Source of the DNA: an uncultured Eubacterium sp.
GTDB taxonomy: Bacteria > Bacillota > Clostridia > Lachnospirales > Lachnospiraceae
Reading direction: 5' to 3'
DNA: 42,746 bases
Assembly: GCA_947384955.1 (NCBI GenBank)
Contig: CANDJC010000028.1
Coordinates: 1-42,746, forward strand
Part shown: one piece after another, positions 4,909 to 20,701 of the stretch
Position numbering within the stretch: the first letter of the stretch is position 1
Layout: each line of letters starts with the position of its first letter
Position numbers and translations under genes: made by a program
Notes under the pieces: model-generated
Databases searched by the model: none
What the model saw: only the letters and a program-made list of their open reading frames with translations
Told to the model about the DNA's origin: nothing

Positions 4909-7158
4909 CTAAACAACAGCTTTCTGATAAGAAATCTTTCTTCCGCGGTAATGAACTGCCAGCGTCATATTCTGCTTTACCGCAAGCAGCACATCAAAGG
5001 TACCAGCCCTTCCCATATCCACAATTTCAATATCTGCCTTCTGGTTCGAAAGCTCCGGCTGAAATGCGTAATTATTCGGCAGCCCATGATAATAAAGATA
5101 CTGGTATCCGTTATATGCAATCACATACCACGTCCTGTCCTTACATCTTCCAAGTGCTTTTAAGACTTTATCCGGGAGTTCCTTTTTGCTCAGCCGTTTT
5201 ATGGATGCCTCCGGCTTTACCTCCTTCGCATCTGTATCGGCATCCGTTTCTTCCATGTCTTTTAAAATCTCTTCTGTCTCCGCCTCTGTCAGATATTCCA
5301 CGCCTTTGACAGACAAATCTGCTTTCCGTCTCAGCTTAATATCTATGCTTCCTTTTTTATCATAGCCGAAGTTTAAAAACGAATTATCAGACCTGATATC
5401 CATAAAAATACGGATGCGCCTGCCCTTATAAAAATATGCCCCGTTTTTTTCTGTAATGCCAAGCTGCCGATATGTTTTTTCTGCCGCTGCTGCTTCTTCT
5501 GCCTTATTCTGGCTGCCTCCTGCTGAACCATCCTTTATCTTTTCCCCGTCAGCTGCGGTTTCTGTTACTTTTATTCTGCAGACAAATGTCTTCCCGTTTA
5601 ATTCTGCCCTGACTTTTGTGCTTCCGGCTTTTTTTGCAGTTACTTTTCCATTCTGACTGACGGATGCTATATTCTGATTGTCACAGGACCATACTGCCTG
5701 CTTTTTTGTTCCTGTCAGCTTTAAAGTCACGCGTTTCCCTTTTTTAAGCGATACAGAAGTCCTGCTGATATTTACGCCCAGCGCATTTTCCTGGATTTTT
5801 CCGGCGGCTTCTATCAACAGCTGCGCTTCCTCCTGTGTCAGATTTTGTTTCAGCCCGGGATATGCCGTCAGTTCCGTAACATCCTCCGTCAGCCTGTCCA
5901 TATCGTCAAACGGGCCGATATCGGTATAGTCCTCCTTTTTTACAAGCGTAATTAAGACACATCCGTCTGTCACGCCTCCTGACGGCATATCCTGTTTATC
6001 TGCACCCGGATACAAAATATAAAACCTCCCTTCCTCCTGTATCATTTTGCAATCGGATAAATGCAACATGCCGTCACCTGTTTCTGCCGCAGCCGGACGC
6101 ATATACGCGCCTGTGACAGCTGCGCTGCATGCAAGCATCAGTGCCGCCGCTGCGGATATTACTGCTGTCAGTCCTGTTTTCTTTTTATCATTCATAATCG
6201 CACCAAGCCTTTCTTTTAACAGTTCACTGCTTTCATTCAATGTCACAGCCGCCAGACTGCTGCGAAAGCCCCCTCCTTCTTCCATCGCACGCAGCAGCGT
6301 ATCCCCGTATGCGCGCCGGCCATCCGCATCCAGATTTTTTAAAACCGCCTCGTCGCAGGACAGCTCACAGTTTCTGCTGATTTCCCGCTCCATCCAGTAT
6401 ACAAGCGGATTAAACCAGTGCAGGCATACGGTCAGCTGCACCAGCCATTTGTAAAACATATCCCGCCGTTTATAATGTGTCAGCTCGTGCAGGAGTATGT
6501 TCTGAAAATCTGTGTCGGATAACTGTGCATTTGTTAAAATAATACTGGGATGAAAAAAACCGGTTAAGAGCGGCGACGCGGTCAGACTGTTTGTATAAAG
6601 TCCCATCATACAGCGGATACGGCTGCGCTCCACTGCCTTTCCCAGTGCTTCCAGACGTCCGATATCCTCCACCGGCCTGCATCCGGCTTTAATAAATCTG
6701 ACAAAGCTCTGGTAAATCGTAATTTTACGGATGAAAAGAAGCGCCGCTGCTGACAGCCAGACAGCCCATAAATGCTGCAGCAAATCCTGCAGCTGTGCCT
6801 TTTGATACCATGCGGCGCCTTCAGACGTGGTTTTATTCTGACTGCTTTCATCCTGGCTATCCTTCCCCGCAAAGACCAAAGCCGCGCTTTCTTCCCCTGC
6901 TGATATCTGCTGACCGCTTTCCCGGATACTGCTGCTCTGCCGTGCCTCATAATGCTGAAACACTCTCCCTATAATCCCGTTTCCAGGATTCCACGGTATC
7001 ATAAGCCGTGCAATGACTGCCAGCCAGATATAATACTGCCAGCGTCTGCTGAACCGTTTCCGGTATTCCGGCCGAAACAGCATCAAAAGCAGAATCATCA
7101 CTGATGCAGAGAGGGAAACGGACAGATATGTTTTAAAAATTTCATTCATCTCCGTCAT
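4909..7158 (-). CDS. BlaR1-like M56 membrane metallopeptidase with bacterial Ig-like (Big_2) domain
   Basis: A 749-residue protein. Hydrophobic segments lie at about 11-28, 40-56, 126-146 and 329-350. The M56 peptidase motif HELTHYKRRD has zinc ligands His224 and His228 with catalytic Glu225, and SCDEAV (Glu270) is the likely third ligand. Classical BlaR1 carries a penicillin-binding sensor after the last membrane segment; here the extracytoplasmic part instead holds a Big_2 fold (about 461-531) and no SxxK/KTG set was seen. The ligand is therefore probably not a beta-lactam. Activation is expected to lead to removal of the repressor encoded just upstream, whose stop it overlaps. An alternative start at 7149 is possible. 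Confidence 0.85.
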   Translation of the reverse strand: MTEMNEIFKTYLSVSLSASVMILLLMLFRPEYRKRFSRRWQYYIWLAVIARLMIPWNPGNGIIGRVFQHYEARQSSSIRESGQQISAGEESAALVFAGKDSQDESSQNKTTSEGAAWYQKAQLQDLLQHLWAVWLSAAALLFIRKITIYQSFVRFIKAGCRPVEDIGRLEALGKAVERSRIRCMMGLYTNSLTASPLLTGFFHPSIILTNAQLSDTDFQNILLHELTHYKRRDMFYKWLVQLTVCLHWFNPLVYWMEREISRNCELSCDEAVLKNLDADGRRAYGDTLLRAMEEGGGFRSSLAAVTLNESSELLKERLGAIMNDKKKTGLTAVISAAAALMLACSAAVTGAYMRPAAAETGDGMLHLSDCKMIQEEGRFYILYPGADKQDMPSGGVTDGCVLITLVKKEDYTDIGPFDDMDRLTEDVTELTAYPGLKQNLTQEEAQLLIEAAGKIQENALGVNISRTSVSLKKGKRVTLKLTGTKKQAVWSCDNQNIASVSQNGKVTAKKAGSTKVRAELNGKTFVCRIKVTETAADGEKIKDGSAGGSQNKAEEAAAAEKTYRQLGITEKNGAYFYKGRRIRIFMDIRSDNSFLNFGYDKKGSIDIKLRRKADLSVKGVEYLTEAETEEILKDMEETDADTDAKEVKPEASIKRLSKKELPDKVLKALGRCKDRTWYVIAYNGYQYLYYHGLPNNYAFQPELSNQKADIEIVDMGRAGTFDVLLAVKQNMTLAVHYRGRKISYQKAVV

Positions 7159-7522
7159 TTCCTCCCTGCCAGAATCTCCTTAGTTCCTCATAATCAGACT
7201 CAGACAAAAGTTCCTTTTGAATCAGCGCCGTTACAAGGCCTTTTGCATTTCCTTCGTAAATTTTCTCCAGAAAGCTCTCGGTCTGTACGCCCTGATATTC
7301 TCCGGCTGATACAAGCGCCGTATATCTGTTGCGGTGTCCGATTTTATTCGCTTTTAGCAGCTTTTTGTCGATAAGCCGCGAAAGCAGGGTAATAATCGTA
7401 TTCTTTGTCCAGGAAATTCCTTTTTCTGACAGCGATGCTGCAATTTCGGCATAAAGGGCTGTACCGCCATTTTCCCAGATGATTTTCATAAGTGTCAGTT
7501 CGTAATCGGATGCCTGCTGCAT
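7142..7522 (-). CDS. BlaI/MecI family transcriptional repressor
   Basis: 126 residues, the usual family length. The N-terminal winged helix is visible (YELTLMKIIWENGG, then SWTKNTIITLLSRLIDKKLL), followed by a dimerisation helix region with the segment around residues 85-100 where family members are cleaved. It binds palindromic operators as a dimer and represses its own operon. AAAAGGAGG precedes the ATG. It is translationally coupled to the BlaR1-like gene downstream, the standard sensor-repressor arrangement. A perfect palindrome lies in its promoter. Confidence 0.93.
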   Translation of the reverse strand: MQQASDYELTLMKIIWENGGTALYAEIAASLSEKGISWTKNTIITLLSRLIDKKLLKANKIGHRNRYTALVSAGEYQGVQTESFLEKIYEGNAKGLVTALIQKELLSESDYEELRRFWQGGNDGDE

Positions 7523-8103: not shown

Positions 8104-9837
8104 TCAGAGCCTGGTAAATATCTCTGTCTCACGGCGCAGCCCGCAGGCAATTTCCTTATTTTTATCCATCTGCATCTGAATGTTATGCATATCCGCTTCC
8201 AGAACCTGCATATTGCCGGATGTGCCACTGAGTCCGGCTGCGCTTTCCTCAATGGCTCTGCTGATAGTATGAATCGCCTCTGCGATTTCGGATACAGCTG
8301 TTTTCAGAGTATCCGTTTTACCGGCAATTTCATGCATCACACATTCCACATATCCGGCATTCTGCTTATATTCTTCTCCGGCATTGACAAAGCCTTCAAA
8401 CTCCGGCAGAATCGTTTCCTTCATGTAACTCACCAGGCTTTGTGCATGCTCAGACAGATTCCGGACTGCCTGTGTCACTACCGCGTTAATCGACTGAATA
8501 TTGTTTGCAGACTCCCTGGCCGCCTCCGCCAGCTTGCTGATTTCCTGTGCGACAACCGCAAATCCCCGGCCCGTTTCCCCCGCTCTTGCCGCCTCAATCG
8601 AAGCGTTCAGCGCTAAAAGATTGGTCTGGTTTGCTACATTTAAGATATCGCTTGTAAGGTTATTGACCTGGTTCACGCTCCTGCTGTCTTCAATTGCCTG
8701 GCTGAGCACAGAAAGAATCTCGTTTAATTTTGCACCTGTTTCCTCCATATTTGTGCGTGCCCCGGCTGCTATGGTGTCCGCATGGTTTTTCATTTTTTTC
8801 GAATATCCGCTCATATCATTCGTGCGCTCTGCAATGCCTGCAGCCTCTTCACTGACGGATTCCGCGTTCCGGTGAATGCTCTGCGCGTGGGCTGATACGG
8901 ATTCCATTGTTTCCGACAGCTCTTCGACAAATGCAGACATTTCCGATACGCTGGCGTTCGAAGTTTTTACATTATCAAGCACCTTAGAAACAACACCGTC
9001 CATTCTTTGTGAATTATCCGCAATCATGCTGAGAATATTCTGCAGTTTTTCCAAAAATACATTGATTCCCTGTCCAAGCGCGGCAATTTCATCATTGGAC
9101 ACGATACGGATGCGTTTTGTCAAATCGCCTTCTTTACGGTCTATTCCCTGGATAATGCCCGACAGTTCACGCTCTGTCCCTGTAATCGGATTTATCATAT
9201 GCCGGTTTGCGCTCCATACCGCATAGATAACAGCCAGAATGCTGAGCAAAACCGTAGCAGTATTGACAAACAGGCCGGACCGGTACACGCTGTCCAGATG
9301 CTTTCTGGCTTCCTGTGCTTCTTCCTTAGCATGAGATTCGATACTGCCAGCCGCAGCCAGCATTTTATTTACGCAGGGAGCGATTTCCTCATTTGCAGCA
9401 GTATTTGCCTCTGCCTGCTTTCTGTCTGCGCTGAATGCACAGATACGCCGGACTCCGGTTAACAGAGCCTGGTACCCCTCTTTTATTTCCTGATAAGCTG
9501 CATCATCATCTGCGCTTAAATACTGCTCATAGGCTGTCAGTTTCTCTTCCAGTTCGTTTTCTTTTTGTTTCAGCCTGTCTGATGCCTGTATCATGCTGGC
9601 AGAATCAGATGCCGTCGCGTGAGACAGCCCCAGAATCTGTATTTCCTGTATCATCTGCTTTACGAGGCTTAATTCCGTAAGGCTTGTCATATCATGGTCT
9701 GCAATCCGGGCCGCATTTTCGTTAACCCTGCGTATATTGGACATCGTGGCTAAATTGGACAATACAGCAGCCATCCCCAGTATTACAACCGGCAGCATAA
9801 TACGCACTTTTATGCTCCTGCGTCTTTTTTGTCTCAT
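8104..9837 (-). CDS. methyl-accepting chemotaxis protein
   Basis: 577 residues. Transmembrane segments at about 12-31 and 189-210 flank an extracellular helical sensor of about 155 residues. HAMP lies at about 211-265. The conserved cytoplasmic hairpin tip is at about 396-440 ([33 protein letters not shown]), where CheA and CheW dock. GAGGAG lies 7 bases before the ATG. It sits between a binding lipoprotein and an HPr-like gene in a sugar-uptake operon, so I infer that it reports galactan-derived sugars, possibly through the lipoprotein. No flagellar or che genes are in the window. Confidence 0.95.
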
Positions 9838-9849
9838 CTGTACACTCCT

Positions 9850-11172
9850 CTAGATTTCCGTAATCCCATTTACCAGCTGGTCCATCAAATCCTGCAGCGG
9901 TATATGATTCGGATTGCCTTTGGCCATGGTTTCTCCAAATACCGACATCGGTGTCCAGTATTTCTGCCCGATTTTTTGCAATACCCCGTATTCGGACTGC
10001 TCTAACACCGCTGCAATGGCCGGAACCTTCAAAACGTCCTCAGAGGCGGCCGCATTCTTATCAGACGGGCCGTTCTGCCTGGACTGAAAATAAAAATTCT
10101 GGCTTTCTTCATTCGAAAGATAATCCGCCAGCATTTCCGCCAGCTCCCTGTGCTGTGAATAGGAATTCACGCCCAGCAGACGGTATCCTTTAAAAGACGA
10201 CATCTGTATCCTTTTACCCGCACAGGAATACTCCGGCAGACGGCATGCCCCGTAATCCCCGCCGAATGCTTTTTTTATGTCCGCAGCATCCCAGACGCCG
10301 CTGACAACTGCAATGGCGGTGCCGTCCAGTGCTTTTTTCGCAAAGTCAGAATCCGCCGTCTCCTCAAATCCGGGATGCTTTGCAATATCTAACAGCGACT
10401 GTGCAATATCGGTTCCCTTTATCTCTCCTTTTGCCGTATTCCAGTTACAGGAATTTGTCAGTCCGTCTTCGTTCAGCTCTAACTGAAGCCCCGTATTTCC
10501 AAAAAAAGAGTACAGATACCAGCCGCTTGTCCAGCTCATGATAAATTTCTTATGACTGAGGGCGCATAGTTCCAGTATGCGGTCCAGACTGCGCACATCC
10601 TCTTTTGTAAAGTACCTCTTATCATAATATAGAAAATATCCGTTATCTGCCGTGTACGGATAGGCGTACATTCTGCCGCTGACAGAAGCCGCCTGTACAG
10701 CTCCTTTTAGGCTGCGCTTTTTAACCTCATCCGCATATGCGATTTCTTCTATCACGCCGGATGCCGCCATTGTCAGCAGCTGGTCATCCGGGATACAGAA
10801 CAAATCTGCGCCATTTGCGGCATCTCCAAGAAATGTATCCTTGCATATGGATGCACCGACCGGCTCAAACTCCACTTCGGCTTCCATGTCCGGATGTTCT
10901 GCAAAAAACTGCTTTATGCGTTTTTGAAACATGTCTGTTTCATACTCGTCGCACCACATGGTCAGCCTGGCTGTACCGGTCTGCTTTGAATCAGCTGCTG
11001 TGCCGTCTTTCTTTGAGCCTCCTGCAGCGCCGTCTGCCTGTTTATTCTGCATCTGCGCATTCCTGCTGTCCGGGGTTTCCTGTTTCCTGCTGCATCCTGC
11101 AAAAACACCCGCTGCAAAGACGAAACATGCCAGGAGCAGCCATGCTGTCTTCTTTATGCTTTTTTCATACAT
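9850..11172 (-). CDS. extracellular solute-binding lipoprotein (sugar type), second in operon
   Basis: 440 residues with a lipoprotein signal ending VFAGC (Cys27), a Lys/Gln/Asp-rich spacer, then a family 1-type binding fold (LTMWCDEYETDMFQKRI, ADLFCIPDDQLLTMAASGVI). Membrane-tethered proteins of this type bind sugars outside the cell. The operon's ABC permeases already have a binding protein at the operon start, and this one sits 12 bases before the chemoreceptor gene. It could therefore be a sensor protein for chemotaxis or a second receptor for the same permeases. AAGGAG precedes the ATG, which overlaps the previous stop by 8 bases. Confidence 0.85.
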   Translation of the reverse strand: MYEKSIKKTAWLLLACFVFAAGVFAGCSRKQETPDSRNAQMQNKQADGAAGGSKKDGTAADSKQTGTARLTMWCDEYETDMFQKRIKQFFAEHPDMEAEVEFEPVGASICKDTFLGDAANGADLFCIPDDQLLTMAASGVIEEIAYADEVKKRSLKGAVQAASVSGRMYAYPYTADNGYFLYYDKRYFTKEDVRSLDRILELCALSHKKFIMSWTSGWYLYSFFGNTGLQLELNEDGLTNSCNWNTAKGEIKGTDIAQSLLDIAKHPGFEETADSDFAKKALDGTAIAVVSGVWDAADIKKAFGGDYGACRLPEYSCAGKRIQMSSFKGYRLLGVNSYSQHRELAEMLADYLSNEESQNFYFQSRQNGPSDKNAAASEDVLKVPAIAAVLEQSEYGVLQKIGQKYWTPMSVFGETMAKGNPNHIPLQDLMDQLVNGITEI

Positions 11173-11737
11173 TCACAGTCTCCTTCCCAGACATCTGTAT
11201 TCCGTTTTTATGCAGCTGCCCGGTTTCCTGTAGATATACCCTGTCCGGATATCTGTTTTTCATTGCCTGCAGCATCGAATCGCTTAAATCTAACAGAAGC
11301 TTGATTTTTTTATGGTTTTCCGTGATAATCATTGTATAGTAAGGCGTATTTTCATCATAAGAGGTATAATCATATTTGGAAAGCTTTATGCTCCCGCCGC
11401 GTCTGCGGTACGCTGCTACCGAATCATGCCAGCCCGGCGCGACTGCTTCCATGGCGTCCATATCCAGAACATGCGCGGGCCTGCGGTATCTTTTTCCCCA
11501 GATGACATCAATCACAAACGTATGATTCTCCAGTGTATATTCATATTCCCTGCGGCTGCAGATGCTGTATGCATAATACATTACCGTAAACAGATAACCT
11601 GAAAGCATAAATCCCCGTGATATCACAATTCCTGACAGCAGAAAAATTACCGCAAAAACTGCCATGCATATACGCAGAACGTTTGTCCAGGGCCCGGGCG
11701 TTCGGATTACCTGTTCTGTCATCTTATTCTGATACAT
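11165..11737 (-). CDS. membrane protein of unknown function (DUF6106-like), 190 aa
   Basis: Two hydrophobic segments close to the N-terminus (about 20-41 and 44-60) are followed by a soluble part of about 125 residues rich in beta-strand character (YEYTLENHTFVIDVIWG, PYYTMIITENHKKIKLLLD). The pattern resembles small two-helix membrane proteins with a PH-like cytoplasmic domain; the DUF6106 assignment is from memory and tentative. GAGGAA precedes the ATG. It lies between the GH53 gene and the second binding lipoprotein and overlaps the latter by 8 bases. No function can be assigned. Confidence 0.7.
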   Translation of the reverse strand: MYQNKMTEQVIRTPGPWTNVLRICMAVFAVIFLLSGIVISRGFMLSGYLFTVMYYAYSICSRREYEYTLENHTFVIDVIWGKRYRRPAHVLDMDAMEAVAPGWHDSVAAYRRRGGSIKLSKYDYTSYDENTPYYTMIITENHKKIKLLLDLSDSMLQAMKNRYPDRVYLQETGQLHKNGIQMSGKETVNV

Positions 11738-11779: not shown

Positions 11780-12781
11780 CTATCCCCGGCTGTCCCTGTA
11801 TGCCTGCAGTGCTTTATTATACCGCAGTGTTTTTCCGCCTGTCAGTTTCGCCGCGCATAACGGGTATTTATCCGGCAGAATCTGCGCTGCCGCCGCCGGC
11901 TCCCAGTAAAAGATGCCTGTCTGCTGCTGCCCGTCCATTTCCCGCATCACGCGGATACAGTCTGTCAGCATCTCGTAACTTCCCTGCTCGTCAGAATCCG
12001 GCCCTCCTGTCTCCACAATCATAACCGGCTTTTTATATGCCCGCGCATACGTGTGCAGCTGCTTTGACAGTCTTTCTTTGCTGCTTAATTCCGGTTCCCA
12101 GTACGGATAGTAAGAAAATCCCAGTATATCGGTCTTTCCGTCCTGTGCAAAAAAATTATCCAAAAAAGGCCTGCACTGCGCATCATCGCATACCGCCGCC
12201 AGATGCGTAATGACCTGGCAGTCCGGGCAGACCTGTTTTACGGCGTCATAACCGGCATTTAAAAAACGCACCAGCTGTTTTGGCGCTGTATCCAGCTTTC
12301 CGTTCGGCCACATCATGCCGTTGTTAATCTCGTTTCCGGCCTGAACCCACTGCGGATAAATGCCGTGCCGCACAAGAAGCTGCAGCACTTCTTGCGTATG
12401 CTCAAAAACCCTTTGTTCCAGCTGTGCGTCTGTATCGTGCTTCCATGCTTCTGGCATATCCTGATACTGCGGGTCTGCAAAATGGTCGCTGTAATGAAAA
12501 TCAATCATCAGCTTCATGCCGCAGTCACTGACCCGCTCTGCCATAGAAAGCACGCTGTCTGCATCGCAGAAGCCAAGCATGCAGACAGCGTCATCCTGTT
12601 TTCGCCAGAACGCGTCCTTCGGCGGATTGACAAACACGCGCAGACGGACTGCGTTTACGCCGAGTTCTTTAGATATTTCTAAAATGTCCCGCTCAGCTCC
12701 TGTCTCATCCAGCCACCGGTATCCCATTGCTTCTAACTGCGTAACCCATCCAAGGTCCGCGCCGTATATCATTTCTGCCAT
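11780..12781 (-). CDS. GH53 endo-beta-1,4-galactanase (arabinogalactan endo-galactosidase)
   Basis: 333 residues forming one GH53 TIM barrel. The family signature GADLGWVTQLE is at the N-terminus, followed by VNAVRLRVFVNP, LMIDFHYSDHFADP, QWVQAGNEINNGMMWP (Glu151, acid/base) and MIVETGG (Glu257, nucleophile). The enzyme hydrolyses beta-1,4-galactan from type I arabinogalactan. There is no signal peptide, so it probably acts inside the cell on imported galacto-oligosaccharides. AAAGGGG lies 6 bases before the ATG. Its presence is the main reason to assign the operon to galactan use. Confidence 0.93.
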   Translation of the reverse strand: MAEMIYGADLGWVTQLEAMGYRWLDETGAERDILEISKELGVNAVRLRVFVNPPKDAFWRKQDDAVCMLGFCDADSVLSMAERVSDCGMKLMIDFHYSDHFADPQYQDMPEAWKHDTDAQLEQRVFEHTQEVLQLLVRHGIYPQWVQAGNEINNGMMWPNGKLDTAPKQLVRFLNAGYDAVKQVCPDCQVITHLAAVCDDAQCRPFLDNFFAQDGKTDILGFSYYPYWEPELSSKERLSKQLHTYARAYKKPVMIVETGGPDSDEQGSYEMLTDCIRVMREMDGQQQTGIFYWEPAAAAQILPDKYPLCAAKLTGGKTLRYNKALQAYRDSRG

Positions 12782-12792
12782 AGTAATCCCCT

Positions 12793-13011
12793 TTAATCAA
12801 AATCAAATTTTGTAAATCTTTTGTACATTGCCCTGTATCTGGTCCTCACCTGCTCGTTTCCTTTTAGGACATCTGCCTCTTTGCCTGTATACTGGCAGCG
12901 GAGGCAGTAGTATTCCTCTTTTTCTTTATCATAAAACATATCGATATCCAAATCCCTTAAAAAGCAGGACGGGCACCTGTAATTTAATCTGCCTTTTCCA
13001 GCCTGAGCCAT
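12793..13011 (-). CDS. small zinc-ribbon protein, 72 aa
   Basis: Contains CPSC (Cys13, Cys16) and CLRC (Cys36, Cys39), a four-cysteine zinc ribbon, followed by a basic helical tail (VRTRYRAMYKRFTKF). GGAGG lies about 10 bases before the ATG at 13011, and the gene overlaps the end of the 614-aa gene. Zinc ribbons of this size often bind nucleic acid or proteins, but nothing here fixes the role. Confidence 0.72.
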   Translation of the reverse strand: MAQAGKGRLNYRCPSCFLRDLDIDMFYDKEKEEYYCLRCQYTGKEADVLKGNEQVRTRYRAMYKRFTKFDFD

Positions 13012-14828
13012 GTTTCAAAAACCTCCTTCTCTGACACCTGTTTCTTATATCCAAGTGTAAACATCGGTGAAAATGCATATCCCTCCCGGATATATCCTTC
13101 TGCACCGTCCGCTTCCTTTTGCAAAGCCCCCATGCTTACCTTTGTCTCTATTGCCGGAATCACCGCCGATACTGCTTTTGCATTTACAAGGCTTTCTTCC
13201 CTGCACTTATATGCATATATAATTTCCTTTGCAGATTCGCCCTCACACCGCAGTATGATTCCGTTCATATCCTCCGGGTATTCCGTGGTTCCATAGCAGG
13301 CTGACATATATTCATTGATTTCCACTTTTGCATCCGGCCTGCTCATTTTTAATATTTCACGCGCGATGCGGATACATCCCGAGCCTTCCTCAAAATATAA
13401 TTTTGTCTGAATTTTTACTGTTAACCCCTGAAATACCACTTCTACCGGGTCAAGCGTCAGTATTCTGGCAGTTCCTTCTTTTGAAAAATGCGCTTTGGTA
13501 CGACACAGGCATAAATCTGTCTCTTCACCTTCATAACTGATTTTCGCGCTGCGTATCGTTCCTTCTCCGGCATAATGCGTGAAATATCCGGCGCGGTATT
13601 TCTCCTGTATTAAAAACGGATAAGAAGCATCCTGGACATGCTTCGTCCCAATGCCGACCTCCCATTTCAGCTTTGCGGCATAAGGACGCAGGTCAAAAAC
13701 CGCGCCGCCCTGGTCCATATTGACCCCGGCTCTCATATACGGGTCTGTATACCAGAAAAGCTGTTTGTCCGAGCCGTACAGGATATCCCGCCAAAGCGCG
13801 CACTCCGGCTCGCTATACGTCTTTTTCCCACGGTAATAATCCGCAAATTCCGCCATGGTCATATCCGTCAGCTTTCCTTCTTTTTTCAGTTCTCCGTAAT
13901 ATTTGCAGCCGTCGGAATAGGACTTCAGCAGCAGTTCGTAAGGCGCTTCCCACCGTCCCATTTTATTCATCCATCCCGGTCCTACAAACATCATATTATA
14001 GGCATAGCCGTTATTGTATTTCTCCTGGTCCCGGTACTGGTCAATCAGATTATAAAGATATGGGAATTCCCATGTTTTGGAATCATATATCATCCCGCGC
14101 AGCACATTCTGCGGATGTGTGCCGAAGTTCGAGCCATTGCCGTCATAGCAGGCAATCAAATCCCTGGACAGATGCGGAATCGCTACAATCCCGCTGTCTT
14201 CGCTTTCGTCCGCTGCCGGAGCATGCGTATTCTGTTTCGACGGAATCCACGGCGCCCACGGGCCTCCGTCAAATAAAGTATACCAGGAATTATTGCAGGT
14301 ATGGTACGCCTTCGGCCCTTCCTCCCAGCAGGTAGCAATGGCGCATTTTACAGACGGGTATTTTTCTTTGATATAATTCGTCAGCTCCGCATCCATATAA
14401 TAAGAACCTGTTGACTGCGGATACACGCCGAAAATCTCATAAAATTTTTCAAATACGTCGTCTACAATGGCCTTCTTATCTTCCATTGAAAACATCCAGA
14501 TACAGAAATCTTTTGTTTTATATTTCTCCCGAAACTGTTCGCACGGAAGTCCCAGCAGCGATAGCGCGATTTCGTCGCCGTATGTTTCATGGTCTTCCTT
14601 TGCAATTTTGACTGCCTCTTCGTTAAAAAGAGAAGCATAGGTCATATGTATTGTCACTTTCAGCCCGTTTTCATGCGCAATCTGCTGCTGTGTCCTGAAA
14701 ATATCCAGCGACTCTGTTAAGAGCTTTTTATCTCCGATATCTTCCTCTTTTCCGTGACCGGCAACCGTAGCCGAATACTCCGGCACCATTTCCGGCCTGT
14801 GGATTACATTCAGAATAAATTCACTCAC
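12984..14828 (-). CDS. uncharacterised protein of a sugar-uptake operon, 614 aa
   Basis: I do not recognise a named family. It starts with GTG at 14828 after AAAGGAG. The N-terminal 200 residues (NVIHRPEM, VTIHMTYASLF, STGSYYMDAELTNYIKEKYP) resemble the beta/alpha barrel of the glycoside hydrolase/deacetylase superfamily, and the middle is rich in Trp, Tyr and Gly as in carbohydrate-active enzymes (WYTLFDGGPWAPWIPS, YAYNMMFVGPGWMN). The C-terminal 200 residues look beta-rich. No signal peptide is seen. Lying between the permease genes and GH53, it is probably a cytoplasmic enzyme acting on the imported saccharide; that is inference. Confidence 0.75.
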   Translation of the reverse strand: MSEFILNVIHRPEMVPEYSATVAGHGKEEDIGDKKLLTESLDIFRTQQQIAHENGLKVTIHMTYASLFNEEAVKIAKEDHETYGDEIALSLLGLPCEQFREKYKTKDFCIWMFSMEDKKAIVDDVFEKFYEIFGVYPQSTGSYYMDAELTNYIKEKYPSVKCAIATCWEEGPKAYHTCNNSWYTLFDGGPWAPWIPSKQNTHAPAADESEDSGIVAIPHLSRDLIACYDGNGSNFGTHPQNVLRGMIYDSKTWEFPYLYNLIDQYRDQEKYNNGYAYNMMFVGPGWMNKMGRWEAPYELLLKSYSDGCKYYGELKKEGKLTDMTMAEFADYYRGKKTYSEPECALWRDILYGSDKQLFWYTDPYMRAGVNMDQGGAVFDLRPYAAKLKWEVGIGTKHVQDASYPFLIQEKYRAGYFTHYAGEGTIRSAKISYEGEETDLCLCRTKAHFSKEGTARILTLDPVEVVFQGLTVKIQTKLYFEEGSGCIRIAREILKMSRPDAKVEINEYMSACYGTTEYPEDMNGIILRCEGESAKEIIYAYKCREESLVNAKAVSAVIPAIETKVSMGALQKEADGAEGYIREGYAFSPMFTLGYKKQVSEKEVFETWLRLEKAD

Positions 14829-14963
14829 GTTCCTGACTCCTTTCCCTATTCCTTAGTTCGATAAAACAGGCATACGGTACGCTCTGCGCCTTCAGATTTC
14901 CCGCATGCCCTGCTTTCTAAATCCTGCTAATTTCTATCCTGTCCTGATTCCTGACTCCTGATT

Positions 14964-15803
14964 TTATTTTACGGCACCTGTAATGCCTTCTGCAAACTGC
15001 TTCTGTAAAATGAAGAAGATTGCCATCGTAGGTACCGAGCAGAATAATACGCCTAACATCAGCATTCCGTAATCCGTTGTATATCCGGATGCCAGATTTG
15101 CAATCAGCATCGGCATCGTCTGTGCATTCGTATCGGTCATAATAACCTTCGGCCACAGATAAGAATTCCACGCATTCATAAAAGTAATAACCGCAGCCGC
15201 CGCATAGGTCGATTTCATCATCGGGATATACATCCGAAAGAAAATCTGATATTCCTTAAGTCCGTCAATACGTGCCGCTTCCATTACGTCAATCGGAAAG
15301 TTTCTGGAATTCTGGCGGAACATCATAATTAAAAACGGTGTTGAAATCGCCGGCAGGATAAATCCGCCTACCGAGTTTAAAAGTCCTAAATCAGAAACCA
15401 GCTTAAACAGCGGAATCATCGTTGCAACGCCGGGAATCATCATTGCGAGCAGCAGTATGGTAAATATCATATCCTTCTTTTTATCATGATACAGCTCAAA
15501 TCCAAAACCTGCCAGCGAGCAGATAAACATTGCAAGAATCGTCTGTACAACCGCGTAAAAAAAGGAATTTCCCATCGCGCCCCACAAATCCTGTCCGGCT
15601 GTCAGATTCCGAAAGTTCTCCATCAGATATCCGCCCGGCAGAATTCTGCCCTTCGCTACGTCAAACGAGGTATTCGTGGCTGCAGAAATCATCCAGTAAA
15701 ACGGGAATACCGACAGAAAGGATACAATTCCCAGAAAAATATAGGTCGGAATCAGCCGGCGCTGAATCATGCTTCGGTTCTTTTTCTCAGTCACGCGTAT
15801 CAC
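14964..15803 (-). CDS. sugar ABC transporter permease (MalG/GanQ type)
   Basis: 279 residues with six predicted membrane helices and the ATPase-docking EAA motif (EAARIDGLKEYQIFFRMYIP). As in the MalG branch, the N-terminus is short and helix 1 lies at about 15-35. It would form the channel together with the permease encoded just upstream, whose end it overlaps by 17 bases. The start is a GTG at 15803 with a weak site; another GTG three codons on is possible. About 135 bases separate it from the next gene. No ATPase gene is present in this operon, so a shared MsmX-like ATPase elsewhere is expected. Confidence 0.94.
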   Translation of the reverse strand: MIRVTEKKNRSMIQRRLIPTYIFLGIVSFLSVFPFYWMISAATNTSFDVAKGRILPGGYLMENFRNLTAGQDLWGAMGNSFFYAVVQTILAMFICSLAGFGFELYHDKKKDMIFTILLLAMMIPGVATMIPLFKLVSDLGLLNSVGGFILPAISTPFLIMMFRQNSRNFPIDVMEAARIDGLKEYQIFFRMYIPMMKSTYAAAAVITFMNAWNSYLWPKVIMTDTNAQTMPMLIANLASGYTTDYGMLMLGVLFCSVPTMAIFFILQKQFAEGITGAVK

Positions 15804-16686
15804 CCACTTTCATATTAATTAACGCTAAGACACCGACCATGATAAATACGCAGAATGCCATTGCGGTCGCATACCCGAAATTCGCAACGCCTGTGCCGAA
15901 TGTCATATTATAAATATAGTGCGACATCGTAATCGTAGAGTTTGCCGGCCCTCCGTTTGTCAGGTTTACAGACTCGTCAAAAAGCTGTAACGTGCCGTTG
16001 ATGGACATAATAAAGGTCATAATAATCGTCGGCTTTAACAGCGGAACCGTAATCCTCCAAAACGTCTGCCAGCCGTTTGCGCCGTCAATTTTGGCTGCCT
16101 CGTATACGGAATACTCAATATTCTGCAGCCCGGCAAGGTAAAATACCATATTGTAACCCGTCCATCTCCAAATCAGCGCAATAATAATGACTGCCTTCGC
16201 ACTTGCCGGATTGCCGAGAAAATTATAATTCTCAGACAGGATATGTAAATTGACAAGAATTGTGTTAATTAAGCCTTCCGTTGCAAACAGCGATTTAAAA
16301 ATCAGCGAATACGATACCAGCGCGGTCGCACATGGCAGAAACACACAGGTACGGAAAAATCCTTTCAGCTTCAGGTGCTTATTATTTAACAGCTGTGCCA
16401 GCAGAATCGCCAGCACGAGCATAACCGGCACCTGAACCGCCAGATACAGAAACGTATTTCCGACCGAACGGATAAACAGCTTATCGGAAAACATTCTCGT
16501 GTAATTATAAAAAAGCGGCTCCGACCAGACCATATTTGCACTGGAACCCGTTTTGAGCGAGGTAAGAAACGCATTGAGCATCGGCCAGAAGCTCATCACG
16601 GCAATCAGCACCGTCGCCGGCGTCAGAAACGTCCAGCCGGCTCTCGATTGTTTTTGAAGCAGACTCAGTCCTTTTTTCTTCTCCAC
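15787..16686 (-). CDS. sugar ABC transporter permease (MalF/GanP type)
   Basis: 299 residues, six predicted membrane helices and an EAA motif (YEAAKIDGANGWQTFWRITV) typical of the MalF branch. The GTG start at 16686 is supported by AAGGAGG 7 bases upstream. It lies 27 bases after the binding-protein gene and overlaps the second permease, the standard order binding protein-MalF-MalG. Galacto-oligosaccharides are the likely substrate, from the GH53 gene in the same operon; sequence alone does not fix this. Confidence 0.94.
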   Translation of the reverse strand: MEKKKGLSLLQKQSRAGWTFLTPATVLIAVMSFWPMLNAFLTSLKTGSSANMVWSEPLFYNYTRMFSDKLFIRSVGNTFLYLAVQVPVMLVLAILLAQLLNNKHLKLKGFFRTCVFLPCATALVSYSLIFKSLFATEGLINTILVNLHILSENYNFLGNPASAKAVIIIALIWRWTGYNMVFYLAGLQNIEYSVYEAAKIDGANGWQTFWRITVPLLKPTIIMTFIMSINGTLQLFDESVNLTNGGPANSTITMSHYIYNMTFGTGVANFGYATAMAFCVFIMVGVLALINMKVGDTRD

Positions 16687-16713: not shown

Positions 16714-18072
16714 TTAATTACCCATCTCAAAGTTCAGCTGGTCCTCTGCATTCTTTAGTTCATCTTCCAGACTGCTGCCGTTAATAATATTTACAATCGC
16801 TGCCGCAATCTGCGTACGGCAGGTATAATGATACGGGCTCTGCTCAATCGTCTGTACATGGCTGCCCATTTCCGCAATCTTTGCATACACCGGCGTATCA
16901 TTAAAAAATGCAACACCCTCGTTATAAACCTCGGATTTGCCTGCCGGAATATAAGTAGATACCACGCCGCCGTTTTTCAGTGCATTATCATAAGTAACCG
17001 TGCTGCCGCCAAACGTATATTTCAGAAAATCTTTTGCAAGCTCCGCATTCTTACAGTTCGCAGTAATATACAAAGAAGAGCCTCCGTTCGATGCATAGCC
17101 TTCGCCTCCCGCAATCGTAGGCATCGATGTGATTTCCCATTTTCCGCTGTTTGCCTCTACTTTCTGAATGGTCGGAATAATCCAGTTGCCGTTCATAACG
17201 CCTGCCACCTGGTCGCCCTGGATTGCCTTGTCGGTATAGTCAGACCAGCTGTTGCAAAGCAGAAGCACCCCTTCATTCGCCATATCAGCAATCAGCTGAA
17301 CAATCTGTTTTAACGTTTCATTCTCTGTAATATACGGTCTGCCGTCTTTAAACTGCGATACACCCTCCGCCTGGCACATCAGATATACAAGGTCGTTTCC
17401 ATCGCCGTCCATGCAGAGCAGATATTTCCCGGTCTTTTCCTTTACCGCTTTTCCGACCTCCATAAATTTCTCCCATGAAATGCCAGTCATATCATCGATG
17501 CTGTATCCCGCTTCTTCTAAAAGGTCCACACGGTATGCCATAATCACTGTGCCGCCGTCTACCGGAACCCCGTAATGAACACCGTCAATCGTAGAATAAT
17601 CAATCTTTTCCGGGTAAAAATCATCCCATTTAATATCTGCATCATCGACATTCTGCCATGCATCCGGATAGTCGGCTACAAACTTCTGAATCCAGTGGTC
17701 CTGAAACAGCACCATATCCGGCAGTGTCTCATAATTCCCGGAAGAAGCCGCTGTGGTAATAAGTGTCTCGATATCCTGGGAGCCTGCCTGTTCTTTGATA
17801 TCTAAAACAAAATCAGGATTTACATTCTCTTTATAGTCCTCTGCAGCTGCCTGAATAGCCGGAATATTAAAAGAAGGATCCCATGCCGCAACTGTAAGTG
17901 TATTCCCTTCTGTGCCTTTCGCTTCTTCCCCGCCTGCATCGCCGCCTGTACTGCCGCTGTCTGTGCCGCTTCCGCTGTCATTTCCGCTATTGCCGCCTGT
18001 TCCGCCGCCGCAGGCAGTCATCGAAAATGCCATCACACCCGCAAGCAATACTGAGATTAATCTTTTTTTCAT
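16714..18072 (-). CDS. sugar ABC transporter substrate-binding lipoprotein
   Basis: 452 residues from the ATG at 18072, chosen because AAGGAGG lies 6 bases upstream (an upstream in-frame ATG at 18117 has none). The lipoprotein signal ends SMTACGG with Cys21 as the lipid site, followed by a Gly/Ser/Asp-rich flexible linker. The rest is a family 1 binding fold (NTLTVAAWDPSFN, DMVLFQDHWIQKF, VAGVMNGNWIIPTI). It captures oligosaccharide outside the cell and hands it to the two permeases. As first gene it lies behind the promoter that shares blocks with the araC promoter. Confidence 0.94.
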   Translation of the reverse strand: MKKRLISVLLAGVMAFSMTACGGGTGGNSGNDSGSGTDSGSTGGDAGGEEAKGTEGNTLTVAAWDPSFNIPAIQAAAEDYKENVNPDFVLDIKEQAGSQDIETLITTAASSGNYETLPDMVLFQDHWIQKFVADYPDAWQNVDDADIKWDDFYPEKIDYSTIDGVHYGVPVDGGTVIMAYRVDLLEEAGYSIDDMTGISWEKFMEVGKAVKEKTGKYLLCMDGDGNDLVYLMCQAEGVSQFKDGRPYITENETLKQIVQLIADMANEGVLLLCNSWSDYTDKAIQGDQVAGVMNGNWIIPTIQKVEANSGKWEITSMPTIAGGEGYASNGGSSLYITANCKNAELAKDFLKYTFGGSTVTYDNALKNGGVVSTYIPAGKSEVYNEGVAFFNDTPVYAKIAEMGSHVQTIEQSPYHYTCRTQIAAAIVNIINGSSLEDELKNAEDQLNFEMGN

Positions 18073-18100
18073 TTTTGTCCTCCTTTTTCGAAAAGATTTC

Positions 18101-18220
18101 TTGTGCAATTTGTACACTTTTCATCTTTCCTGTTTGTTTTTATGTGCATAATTATAACGAATCTTTTTGCCCCATTGCGTTCTTTTTCGACCAAAAAAAA
18201 AGGCATATTCTATCTTTTTT
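18101..18220 (-). promoter_or_regulatory. promoter of the galactan operon with blocks shared with the araC promoter
   Basis: Minus strand, in order: upstream block (18202-18220, AAAAAAGATAGAATATGCC followed by nine Ts), weak -35 CGCAAT (18174-18179), 17-base spacer, -10 TATAAT (18151-18156), and a downstream block TGTACAAATTGCACAA (18101-18116). The same blocks appear in the same order at 20493-20612 before araC. A poor -35 with a conserved upstream block suggests activator-dependent transcription. Confidence 0.72.
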
Positions 18221-18374
18221 TGTATTTTCTGAACACACAGACAGCTGCAGAATGGGAGTGGTCAGATTCCCGAATGCCGGGAGAGGCGGAGATATGCTGG
18301 ATTTCTGCGACAGCTTTCGAATGTCAGAAAGCCCTTGGAATCCGCTCATATGAATTTAAAGAAGTAAAAGAAAT

Positions 18375-18426
18375 AAAAAAACAGGCACACTGCTGCCCGC
18401 ATTCATTGTGAAAAGCAGCACGCCTG
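18375..18426 (-). terminator. intrinsic terminator after the Rpn-type gene
   Basis: Minus strand: CAGGC..GCTGC (18415-18426) pairs with GCAGCA..GCCTG (18382-18396), followed by seven Ts (18375-18381). It lies about 40 bases after the Rpn-type stop and separates that gene and araC from the sugar operon. Bases 18221-18374 show nothing further that I can name. Confidence 0.7.
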
Positions 18427-18468
18427 CCAAAAATCAGCCTTGCTATCCTGTATAAAACGCACCATATC

Positions 18469-19455
18469 TTATGGAGCACTTTCTTCAAGCCCGAGCCATC
18501 CTTTTACTGTTTCCACAGCATATCCAACCGCCTGTGCTATCTTTTCAATATCAAGACCCATCTTATACAAGTTTCCAGCAACTTCCCGAGCTTTTTTCTG
18601 CTCAGACTCTTTCCTTATTTCCTGAATTGCCTGGCACACATTCACCACCCCGTCTTTTTTATCATATTTTATTCCCGAATTTGTAACTGCTTCAATCACG
18701 TCCACCGCCCTGCGCTCCACTTCCCGGAAACGCTTTTCGTTGGCCGCCAATACTCTGCTTAAATTTTCCTTATCCTTCGAATATTTGATGAACAGCATGA
18801 CCTCCCGCAGGCTGGACTGAAATTTCATAATTTCCTCATCCGCCATCTGTGCCGGTGCAATGAGCCGCACATGATAATTGTCCATGCAGGCAAGCACATC
18901 CGGATCTGAAACATCCATCATATCAAACAGGCTTAACGGTCCATCCCACTCTTTTGAACCAAAGAATATAGTCACCGTGATGGATGGTATCAGCCTGTCT
19001 CCTGCCCAGAAACCGCTTAAGAATTCACCCGTGTTTGGTGTTTTCCCTCCTTCTTCAGCAGACGTTTCCCCCTGTTCCTTTTTCCGCTTCATTTCCTTCC
19101 GGTGTGACTTTGCCGCCTCTTCCACCTGCCCTGCGTATTCCAGCGCATCATAAAGATTGTTCTTCACAGGCATGGCATAATGAATTTCCGCCTGGTTTTC
19201 CACTCCATAAAGGATGTACCGCATCTTCCCATCCGTCATCGCAGCATACAGCTTCTGCACATCACGAAATTTCTGAACGGGAACCACCGCACCGTCCGCA
19301 CCATATGGCAGCGCAATTTTAGCAGAATCACGCTCTGTAAGCTGTTCTGGCAGGATCACCTGCCGCCCGCCGTAAATATAATAATTGAAAATATCAGCAA
19401 ACACGCCCGCATCTTTTACATAATCCTTAGTAACTGTATCTGCTTTCAACAGCAT
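18469..19455 (-). CDS. Rpn family nuclease / PD-(D/E)XK transposase-like protein
   Basis: 328 residues from the ATG at 19455 (an AAAGG-type site precedes it; the frame is open to 19524). The opening (KADTVTKDYVKDAGVFADIFN) and the centre (YILYGVENQAEIHYAMPV, with Glu-x-Gln of the nuclease core) are typical of the Rpn/PD-(D/E)XK group abundant in Clostridia. The C-terminal motif GLDIEKIAQAVGYAVETVKG is the usual family ending. Rpn proteins in Enterobacteria are DNA endonucleases that promote recA-independent recombination. It lies between araC and that regulator's presumed target operon and is closed by its own terminator. Confidence 0.82.
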   Translation of the reverse strand: MLLKADTVTKDYVKDAGVFADIFNYYIYGGRQVILPEQLTERDSAKIALPYGADGAVVPVQKFRDVQKLYAAMTDGKMRYILYGVENQAEIHYAMPVKNNLYDALEYAGQVEEAAKSHRKEMKRKKEQGETSAEEGGKTPNTGEFLSGFWAGDRLIPSITVTIFFGSKEWDGPLSLFDMMDVSDPDVLACMDNYHVRLIAPAQMADEEIMKFQSSLREVMLFIKYSKDKENLSRVLAANEKRFREVERRAVDVIEAVTNSGIKYDKKDGVVNVCQAIQEIRKESEQKKAREVAGNLYKMGLDIEKIAQAVGYAVETVKGWLGLEESAP

Positions 19456-19514
19456 CCACCGCCTTTCTGCATGAACATGTAAAAACGAAACTGTACTGGC
19501 TTTATTATAGCATT

Positions 19515-20450
19515 TCACTCCCACCCCCGCAATACACTGATTTTAAAATCCAGCAGCTGTCTGGAATGATTATCCGGCGAACGCTTCCACTGATAAGGCG
19601 TCATGCCGAACATCTTCTTGAAGTTCCTGGTAAACGTAGATACATCCCCATACCCGACCCGGAACGCAATCTCTTCCATCGTTGCAAAGCTTTTTAAAAG
19701 CAGCCTGCTCGCCTCCTGAATCCGGATAACGTTAATGTAGTCATTCGGCCCTATATTCATGCATTCCTGAAAAATTCTTCGAAAATGCGTCTCGCTGATG
19801 CCGCAGACCTGTGCAAGATTTTGAATTTTAATTTCCTCATGATAATGCTCTTTCACATAGCTAAGCGCCGGCGCTATCTGAAAGTTCCTGGTACTTTTGC
19901 GCGGCATATCTCCCTGAACATTATGGATGCGAAGAAGCTCTACAACAAAAGACTGCAGGATTCCTTTGAGCGTCTCTTTGTACATATATGCCTTTTTATC
20001 ACATTCATCGCGGATTTTTAATATCGTATCGCTGATATCCGGATACTCCTGTCTGTAAAAGAATAATGCGGATTCGTACATCACACCGCGCAGATAATCC
20101 GTATCTAATTTGCTCGAGGACAACTCTTTCATATCCTGCAGCACACTGTCAATATCCAGATACATCCACTCCCAGTACGCAGTCGTTCCTAAATCCGCGG
20201 TATTGCTGTGCGGATAATTGGGCGGTACAATGATGACACAGTCTTTTTCAAAAATTTTTACACTGTCGCACAGCGTGCTTTCTCCGTGCCCTTCATAACA
20301 GATTCCAACTTCCATGTAATTGTGAAAATGCAGATTATCAATATCCTTTCCATATGACCTCCTCCAGCTTTCCCCGAGAAGCGCACGTACCTGTTCATTC
20401 GGTTCAATCTCGTAATACCTGAATTCCATCTTTGGTTTCTTCTTTGCCAT
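19515..20450 (-). CDS. AraC family transcriptional regulator
   Basis: 311 residues. A cupin-like sensing domain fills the N-terminal half (HFHNYMEVGICYEGHGES, VIIVPPNYPHSNT). The C-terminal pair of helix-turn-helix motifs is at about 205-300 (IKIQNLAQVCGISETHFRRI, MEEIAFRVGYGDVSTFTRNF). Such proteins bind a sugar and activate uptake and catabolic genes. GAGGGG precedes the ATG. The promoter shares three sequence blocks with that of the galactan operon, so it probably activates both itself and the operon. Confidence 0.93.
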   Translation of the reverse strand: MAKKKPKMEFRYYEIEPNEQVRALLGESWRRSYGKDIDNLHFHNYMEVGICYEGHGESTLCDSVKIFEKDCVIIVPPNYPHSNTADLGTTAYWEWMYLDIDSVLQDMKELSSSKLDTDYLRGVMYESALFFYRQEYPDISDTILKIRDECDKKAYMYKETLKGILQSFVVELLRIHNVQGDMPRKSTRNFQIAPALSYVKEHYHEEIKIQNLAQVCGISETHFRRIFQECMNIGPNDYINVIRIQEASRLLLKSFATMEEIAFRVGYGDVSTFTRNFKKMFGMTPYQWKRSPDNHSRQLLDFKISVLRGWE

Positions 20451-20492
20451 ACCGTATCCCCTCTGTATCAGATTCTTTCTCTTATGGTTTTA

Positions 20493-20612
20493 TTGTGCAA
20501 TCTGTATAGCATTACCGTTTTCTGAAATGATTTTCTATCTATAATTATACTCATTTCCCTTATGCATTTGCGCTTTTATTCATTCAAAAAAAAGGCATTT
20601 TCTATCTTTTTT
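20493..20612 (-). promoter_or_regulatory. araC promoter with blocks shared with the galactan operon promoter
   Basis: Minus strand: upstream block (20594-20612, AAAAAAGATAGAAAATGCC then eight Ts), weak -35 CGCAAA (20567-20572), 17-base spacer, -10 TATAAT (20544-20549), downstream block TATACAGATTGCACAA (20493-20508). The spacings differ from those at 18101-18220 by at most one base. Confidence 0.72.
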
Positions 20613-20634: not shown

Positions 20635-20692
20635 AGACAAACCTAATGGAGGGATTTTTCTATATAGAAAAATCCCTCCATTAGGTTTGTCT
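20635..20692. repeat. 58-bp perfect palindrome after the STM4013-like gene
   Basis: Two 29-bp arms with no loop and no mismatch (20635-20663 against 20664-20692), centred on CTATATAG. It begins 9 bases after the STM4013-like stop on the minus strand. No T-run follows, so it is not a standard intrinsic terminator, though the RNA hairpin could still end or protect the transcript. It also separates that transcript from the araC promoter. Confidence 0.85.
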
Positions 20693-20701
20693 TATCTGAT
20701 T

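Follow-up and report, generated by a model that had tools for sequence, protein, structure and literature searches.

A putative AraC-dependent promoter shared by a regulator gene and a sugar-transporter operon of a Lachnospiraceae bacterium, with a conserved downstream block that lies in a leader hairpin of the operon

In Escherichia coli, a single regulator, AraC, acts through a tandem pair of half-sites beside the promoter together with a distant half-site, with looping between araO2 and araI. Another member of the AraC family, Rns of enterotoxigenic E. coli, reportedly activates its own gene through sites that include one downstream of the start; no RNA hairpin is known to take part in that system. 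The Rns sites at pilus promoters lie upstream (PMC5192496). In the MtlR system of Pseudomonas fluorescens, the mtlE promoter carries direct-repeat half-sites with a 22-bp period, the upstream one strong and the downstream one, near the -35, weak, and a poly-A tract has been noted at the first repeat (PMC4514859). AraC-family activators with tandem half-sites are already known. Polysaccharide-utilisation loci of Roseburia and E. rectale combine AraC regulators with GH53 and with ATP-binding cassette (ABC) or other transporters (PMC5320581); the terms 'binding site' and 'operator' have no occurrence in the main text of that paper. The present analysis concerns a 42,746-nucleotide stretch of DNA from an uncultured gut bacterium, a Eubacterium sp. 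of the Lachnospiraceae (contig CANDJC010000028.1 of assembly GCA_947384955.1; hereafter, the window), in which an AraC-family regulator gene (araC) and a sugar-transporter operon, whose first gene encodes a substrate-binding protein (SBP), are preceded by two similar promoter regions.

Both regions are on the minus strand and contain the same three blocks. At the SBP promoter, the upstream block (AAAAAAGATAGAATATGCC, 18202..18220), predicted to be AraC half-site 1, is followed by a T9 run (18193..18201) that forms the spacer to half-site 2 (GGTCGAAAAAGAACGCAAT, 18174..18192). Half-site 2 lies 22 bp after half-site 1, occupies the -35 place and includes CGCAAT (18174-18179); the -10 TATAAT is at 18151..18156, and the downstream block of the leader (TGTACAAATTGCACAA) lies at 18101..18116, at the tip of a leader hairpin, and is a candidate third half-site for AraC. 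At the araC promoter, the corresponding elements are the upstream block (AAAAAAGATAGAAAATGCC, 20594..20612), likewise predicted to be half-site 1, a T8 spacer (20586..20593), half-site 2 (GAATGAATAAAAGCGCAAA, 20567..20585, with CGCAAA at 20567-20572) at a period of 21 bp, the -10 TATAAT (20544..20549) and the conserved downstream block (TATACAGATTGCACAA, 20493..20508), where no RNA hairpin was predicted (fold z 0.07). Every block and coordinate of the preliminary description was correct to the base, and its spacings of 17 bases from the CGCAAW element to the -10, 44 or 45 from the upstream block to the -10 and 34 or 35 from the -10 to the downstream block agree with these positions. Its remark that the regions are 2.4 kb apart holds for the window and needs refinement in wording, as this interval consists of araC and a 1.06-kb gene and measures only 1.1 kb in the sister genome G003.

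The likeness of the two regions was evaluated against the own genome of the window (5.06 Mb, 271 contigs). The upstream core occurred without mismatch at these two places only, with three more places at 3 mismatches, and the downstream pattern was also exact only here; five places matched it with 1 mismatch, none of which had a comparable promoter setting. A whole-promoter profile, built from 16 sequences including both window copies and scored on 150 of 3903 first-look candidates, returned the two copies with E values of 8.7e-22 and 9.6e-21, and the next match had an E value of 0.04. By these pattern counts and E values, the likeness is real, and the three-part composite is apparently private to araC and the SBP operon within this genome. 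The counts of the downstream pattern with up to 2 mismatches (73 + 58, as compared to 18 + 19 for the reversed pattern) were not used as evidence of enrichment because the reversed control differs in dinucleotide make-up. Outside the own genome, 10 of the 14 best matches of a family-wide profile search (E up to 0.00104) adjoin an AraC relative.

AraC relatives were gathered from the genus, from 299 family genomes and from named genome contigs. In the genus, all 13 genomes gave some match, with orthologues of 94% in G003 and 83% in G004; in the family, 53 of the 299 genomes did so at E <= 1e-40; from the named contigs, 80 loci were kept from at least 416 AraC relatives. In other genomes, the AraC relatives adjoin relatives of the same SBP gene, and 98 SBP upstream regions (32 + 66 loci; 89 of the 98 distinct) were available. 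Within the last 260 nt of these regions, the core GAAWWTGC was found on the coding strand in 84/98 and on the other strand in 7/98. The core followed 50-56 bp on by a -10 with at least 5 of 6 matches was present in 81/98 SBP upstreams. Of the 89 distinct SBP promoters, 70 had a distance of 52-54 bp between half-site 1 and the -10, and the other 19 gave no call (-10 sought at 44-66 bp). It was also 52-54 bp in 49 non-redundant promoters (sought at 47-58 bp), comprising 44 SBP and 5 araC promoters drawn from 69 usable rows, the SBP members of which had been pre-selected by an anchor search that dropped 19/89.

In these 49 promoters, the period of the half-sites, sought at 19-23 bp, was 21 bp in 37 and 19, 20, 22 or 23 bp in the other 12; the 22-bp period of the SBP copy in the window was found in 2, and the araC copy has the 21-bp period. 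Among relatives, the layout consists of half-site 1 (GGTYGAAWWTGC), a T-rich spacer and half-site 2 (ATTGAATATGAAAACA). Thus, there are tandem direct-repeat half-sites about two helical turns apart, the second of which lies at the -35. The upstream block and T-run of the preliminary description would then be half-site 1 and the spacer of a tandem AraC-type operator. That description had named an upstream block and a weak -35, CGCAAW; both are present, but the block is the first member of a half-site pair, the second of which takes the -35 place, so that CGCAAW is the last part of half-site 2. A role of CGCAAW as a -35 hexamer was rejected, since in the 49 aligned promoters its bases continue half-site 2 with no TTGACA-like signal. 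The earlier suggestion of an activator-type promoter was strengthened, as in many Lachnospiraceae the operator is found together with this AraC subfamily, and its tandem arrangement is that of an AraC-family activator already characterised; this association also makes it likely that AraC regulates both units. In six loci with more distant AraC paralogues of the genus (L042-L047), the core was found in one SBP upstream (L047), and the downstream block was found in none.

The downstream block was returned by a motif search over leaders: an expectation-maximisation search of the 49 leaders, seeded with random words from them, gave TACAAATTGCACAA in its six best runs. This motif was found in 37/49 leaders overall, and in 24/49 it reached at least 10 bits at 34-38 nt after the -10, a nearly fixed position. 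Two groups of loci were defined by eye from leader sequences. The window group is made up of the window, G003, G004 and eight closely related loci for which an SBP gene was available; L082 and L085, which have none, do not belong to it, and L077 is G003. Group 2 contains 20 loci between L102 and L152, mostly recorded as Lachnospiraceae; L127, whose leader is the same as that of L128, and L134 and L144, which have undetermined bases, were left out. In group 2, 20/20 loci had TACAAAWTGAC, or a sequence close to it, 36-37 nt after the -10, a figure that speaks for position and not for frequency because the group was chosen partly for showing the motif. Across 16 window-group promoters, the block lay at a distance of 93-97 bp from half-site 1. 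A coupling of this distance between the two promoters within species was considered and dropped, since the values were equal in G000, G003 and G004 (96/96, 95/95 and 94/94), but not in L078 (95/93). A leader peptide was rejected by reading: the GTG/TTG codons of the block are in the SBP frame in the window, but not in G003. The group 2 leaders also carry a second palindrome-like motif, for example GTGCACAATGTGCACAAAA, ca. 86-89 nt after the -10 and before the ribosome-binding site, which shows paired changes between some loci.

In the araC leaders of the window, G003, L078 and L085, 12 of 17 columns were invariant in the block as compared to 10 of 35 before it (p 0.005), and inclusion of G004 gave 10 of 17 and 2 of 35. 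With only the three unpaired araC leaders (window, G003 and L085), the numbers were 13 of 17 and 17 of 35 (p 0.05). Conservation of the block at araC, thus, argues for a promoter-tied role at the DNA level, modestly so because of this last value. With regard to control of the Rns type, with sites on both sides of the start, the downstream element here has a nearly fixed place and is conserved at both promoters, the conservation being borderline with the three unpaired leaders. Furthermore, the highest score of the half-site-1 matrix on the block fell at the offset and on the strand that were expected, a result equalled by 10 of 300 column shuffles, and the similarity between the matrices of half-site 1 and the block was reached by 197 of 5000 shuffles.

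In the SBP leader, the block is enclosed by a predicted RNA hairpin (18090..18130, minus strand), the arms of which (18123-18130 and 18090-18097) flank it. A stem around the block was obtained in 10/11 close SBP leaders, and the eleventh, L083, which was mis-anchored there, folded in the same way in the anchor search. When single leaders were folded, six of seven SBP leaders had z values of -3.30 to -6.10, including the window with -3.62, and L087 had -1.09; among three araC leaders, the values were -2.05 for G004, 0.07 for the window and 0.33 for G003. Arm swaps were used instead of column counting because the alignments misplace the stem arms: in the MAFFT alignment of group 2 leaders, the inner stem was one column off in part of the rows, and in the window-group alignment A2, the arms were not lined up. 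In the window group (n = 11), own arms gave -11.19 kcal/mol and permuted right arms -6.91 kcal/mol; in group 2 (n = 20), the values were -15.91 and -10.45 kcal/mol; none of 5000 swaps reached the own arms in either group. The group 2 arm pattern had matched 5/20 loci at first, and the widened pattern matched 20/20. Removal of similar loci (leaving n = 10 and n = 9) did not alter either outcome. In six controls, the counts were 241, 443, 1187, 1897, 2996 and 4155 of 5000. RNAalifold on the group 2 MAFFT alignment kept 6 outer pairs, 3 of which had changes on both sides. The arms of the SBP leader, thus, vary between species yet keep pairing, in both groups. The araC leaders as a set failed the arm-swap test (393/5000, n = 5).

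The hairpin was compared with described RNA elements. There was no Rfam match at the gathering threshold in the window, and permissive scans, which covered the leader regions of the window and L121 only, gave hits all far below gathering. An intrinsic terminator or attenuator was rejected, since in the window GAAAAAGGAGG, which contains no T run, comes after the right arm. In the fold predicted for the window, the ribosome-binding site remains unpaired. The hairpin is, therefore, neither a terminator nor, in this fold, a lock on the start site.

Based on these results, we favour, with moderate confidence, the reading that both regions are one AraC-dependent promoter that was copied, that AraC activates both, and that the downstream block is a third AraC half-site overlapping a leader hairpin. 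The AraC protein would bind two direct-repeat half-sites, GATAGAAWATGCC and, 21-22 bp on, a weaker G(A/G)WYGAAWAARARCGC at the -35 place. As the shared layout suggests, the inducer-bound protein, the inducer presumably being an oligosaccharide, would recruit RNA polymerase to the perfect -10. With a start 7 bases past the -10, the downstream block would occupy about +27 to +43. A third AraC half-site, oriented like the other two, is the most likely identity of the block, though not a proven one. AraC at this site might then bridge the ca. 95 bp to the upstream sites, either holding the promoter off without inducer or adding activation with inducer; this is the least certain step. In the SBP mRNA, the block would form the tip of the covarying hairpin just before the ribosome-binding site, and the hairpin, the existence of which is supported, probably acts on mRNA stability or translation.

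Several observations weigh against this reading. Twenty-five of the 49 leaders had no clear block at 34-38 nt: it was at 86-89 nt in 10 (all group 2), elsewhere in 3 and nowhere in 12. The block resembles a half-site weakly, at about 3-4% by shuffles, its reverse strand was better in matrix similarity (0.55 vs 0.41) and nearly equal with the half-site-1 matrix (18.1 vs 20.8), and the half-site 2 matrix showed no match to it, with 131 of 300 shuffles as good. Some relatives have a symmetric form of the block, TTGTGCA-N3-TGCACAA, which fits another kind of regulator, and the upstream and downstream sites are ca. 9.2 helical turns apart, which is not a whole number. In addition, 4 of the 14 best family-wide profile matches were not beside a collected AraC relative; the weaker matches of that search may be due to chance. 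The p value of 0.05 for the three unpaired araC leaders belongs here as well. As for the hairpin, a DNA site does not require a covarying one, two of the six controls were low (241 and 443 of 5000), and the L078 and G004 araC leaders do pair (own arm rank 1 of 5 each).

The alternative that survives best is that the block acts as RNA, its hairpin tip being recognised by a protein or small RNA or serving in 5' end protection, with the araC copy as a fading relic of promoter duplication. This would account for the covarying arms in two groups (0/5000 swaps each), for the stem around the block in the close SBP leaders and the z value of the window (-3.62), and for the arms of the G004 araC leader, which differ yet pair, and those of L078, which also rank first. 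It fits less well with the block being kept at araC though the window and G003 leaders have no hairpin, a point that is borderline (p 0.05) with the three unpaired leaders, and with the nearly fixed distance from the block to the -10, which an RNA element does not need. We regard this explanation as possible but unlikely. The preliminary description had left the downstream block as a second binding site or an RNA signal, and both options gained evidence, the block being conserved at both promoters and lying in a covarying hairpin in the SBP leader. A combination of the two is put forward tentatively, as a possible but unlikely reading: AraC may recognise the block as double-stranded DNA at a fixed promoter distance, and the block may act a second time as an exposed hairpin tip in the transporter mRNA, the araC copy of the window keeping the DNA reading only. 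If so, the leader would represent an unnamed cis-RNA of Lachnospiraceae sugar-transporter operons that couples transcriptional induction to mRNA fate.

It is improbable that the downstream block is the operator of a second, dimeric regulator acting as a roadblock repressor. The block is nearly symmetric in L066, L067, L052 and L086, but the window copies are poorly symmetric, a roadblock requires no fixed spacing, and in the own genome the exact block is confined to the two promoters, the five one-mismatch places being without a comparable setting. That the two regions are alike only through common descent of copied DNA, and that the likeness has no regulatory function at araC today, is very improbable: copying does happen, as is evident in G004, where the two promoters are nearly identical between half-site 1 and the -10, but the likeness in the window is limited to the blocks. 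Among the araC promoters of the window, G003, L078 and L085, mean pairwise identity was high in half-site 1 (0.86) and the block (0.82) and lower between the -35 and -10 (0.59) and in the leader before the block (0.56).

The favoured reading of a copied AraC-dependent promoter also bears on the origin of the araC copy. The operator with a -10 was found upstream of araC in 3/80 contig loci (L077, L078 and L085) and in 3/38 other loci (window, G003 and G004), the sister genome G003 being counted in both sets as L077. An autoregulated araC promoter common to the whole AraC subfamily was ruled out by these numbers, as compared to 81/98 SBP upstreams. Since the araC operator is confined to the clade of the window, the SBP promoter was probably copied to the front of araC in this clade, creating autoregulation, so that the regulator probably sets its own level. 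In G004 (L041), the araC and SBP promoters that are nearly identical lie at 13359-13478 and 14515-14634, and its araC leader still folds into a paired hairpin, though the arms differ. In the window, G003, L078 and L085, on the other hand, it is the araC promoters that resemble one another. The simplest account of these comparisons would be an old copying from SBP to araC in the clade and a later, second overwriting in G004.

The product of araC (19515..20450, minus strand; 311 amino acids, aa) has a cupin-like N-terminal half and two helix-turn-helix motifs, and matched the Pfam families HTH_18 (E 1.8e-23), HTH_AraC (E 2e-18, with 2 matched stretches) and AraC_binding. With its two C-terminal helix-turn-helix motifs, it is an AraC/XylS-family regulator, and it is presumed to be the activator of both promoters. 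The SBP gene (16714..18072, minus strand; Pfam SBP_bac_8 and SBP_bac_1) has an ATG start preceded by AAGGAGG. The remainder of the proposed regulated operon (11780..16686, minus strand) encodes two permeases, a 614-aa protein without a family and a GH53 galactanase, and is followed by genes for a 190-aa protein, a second binding protein and a chemotaxis receptor. This order is kept in G003 and G004; the 190-aa gene had no match within the G004 stretch, and the chemotaxis receptor runs past the end of the G003 stretch. The 'galactan' label given to the operon is tentative and rests on the GH53 gene and on the second binding protein, which matched the GanS model with a score below the cut-off. 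The 614-aa protein (12984-14828, minus strand) was not assigned to any Pfam or NCBIfam family under the thresholds applied; it shares 94% and 90% identity with its counterparts in G003 and G004, respectively, and is possibly an unnamed carbohydrate enzyme. The operon seems to run on through 8104-11172 (minus strand), where the second binding protein, with its sub-cut-off GanS match, and a methyl-accepting chemotaxis protein are encoded, and this extension could link galactan uptake with chemotaxis.

Other features were observed around these genes. A second AraC-like gene lies directly upstream of araC in L079, L080, L081, L082, L084, L086 and L087, but not in L083. In all eight loci (L079-L084, L086 and L087), a relative of the 190-aa protein of the window (11165-11737) is encoded just downstream of araC, and it precedes the SBP gene where that gene is on the contig. 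Between araC and the SBP promoter, a 351-aa gene (18469-19524, minus strand) showed a sub-threshold match to the YhgA-like transposase family PF04754 (E 0.0069), and DNA similar to this region was found on contigs C104 (312 bp at 83%) and C51 (186 bp at 75%) of the own genome. A perfect, loopless 29-bp inverted repeat, noted by eye at 20636-20693, directly upstream of the araC promoter and downstream of a sulfatase-like gene, may be a terminator or a small mobile element. At 4909-7522 (minus strand), a BlaR1-like M56 peptidase carrying a bacterial Ig-like domain is encoded beside a BlaI-like repressor.

Among the Lachnospiraceae loci of this analysis, sugar ABC transporter genes repeatedly had an AraC-type regulator next to them. 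For these, the present results provide a testable operator code (GAAWWTGC, a 21-bp period, a T-rich spacer and a -10 at 52-54 bp), of which this genome has only two strong instances. They also provide a conserved element of the leader, together with a covarying hairpin that matched no Rfam family where scanned. The occurrence of the promoter before both the operon and the regulator gene in one clade also offers a traceable case of how autoregulation may arise. In a literature search, which is not proof of absence, neither the operator nor the leader element was recognised, nor was a fixed leader element common to an operon and its regulator and nested in a covarying hairpin at one of them. Among the systems described above, the MtlR promoter differs in its Gram-negative host and mannitol inducer, and the part of that paper drawn on here does not mention a conserved leader element (PMC4514859). 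The window promoters have the same tandem layout as the MtlR promoter, a strong half-site followed by a weak one near the -35. As compared to E. coli AraC, in which araO2 is far upstream, the third element of the window system is located in the leader; in 16 promoters, 93-97 bp separate it from half-site 1.

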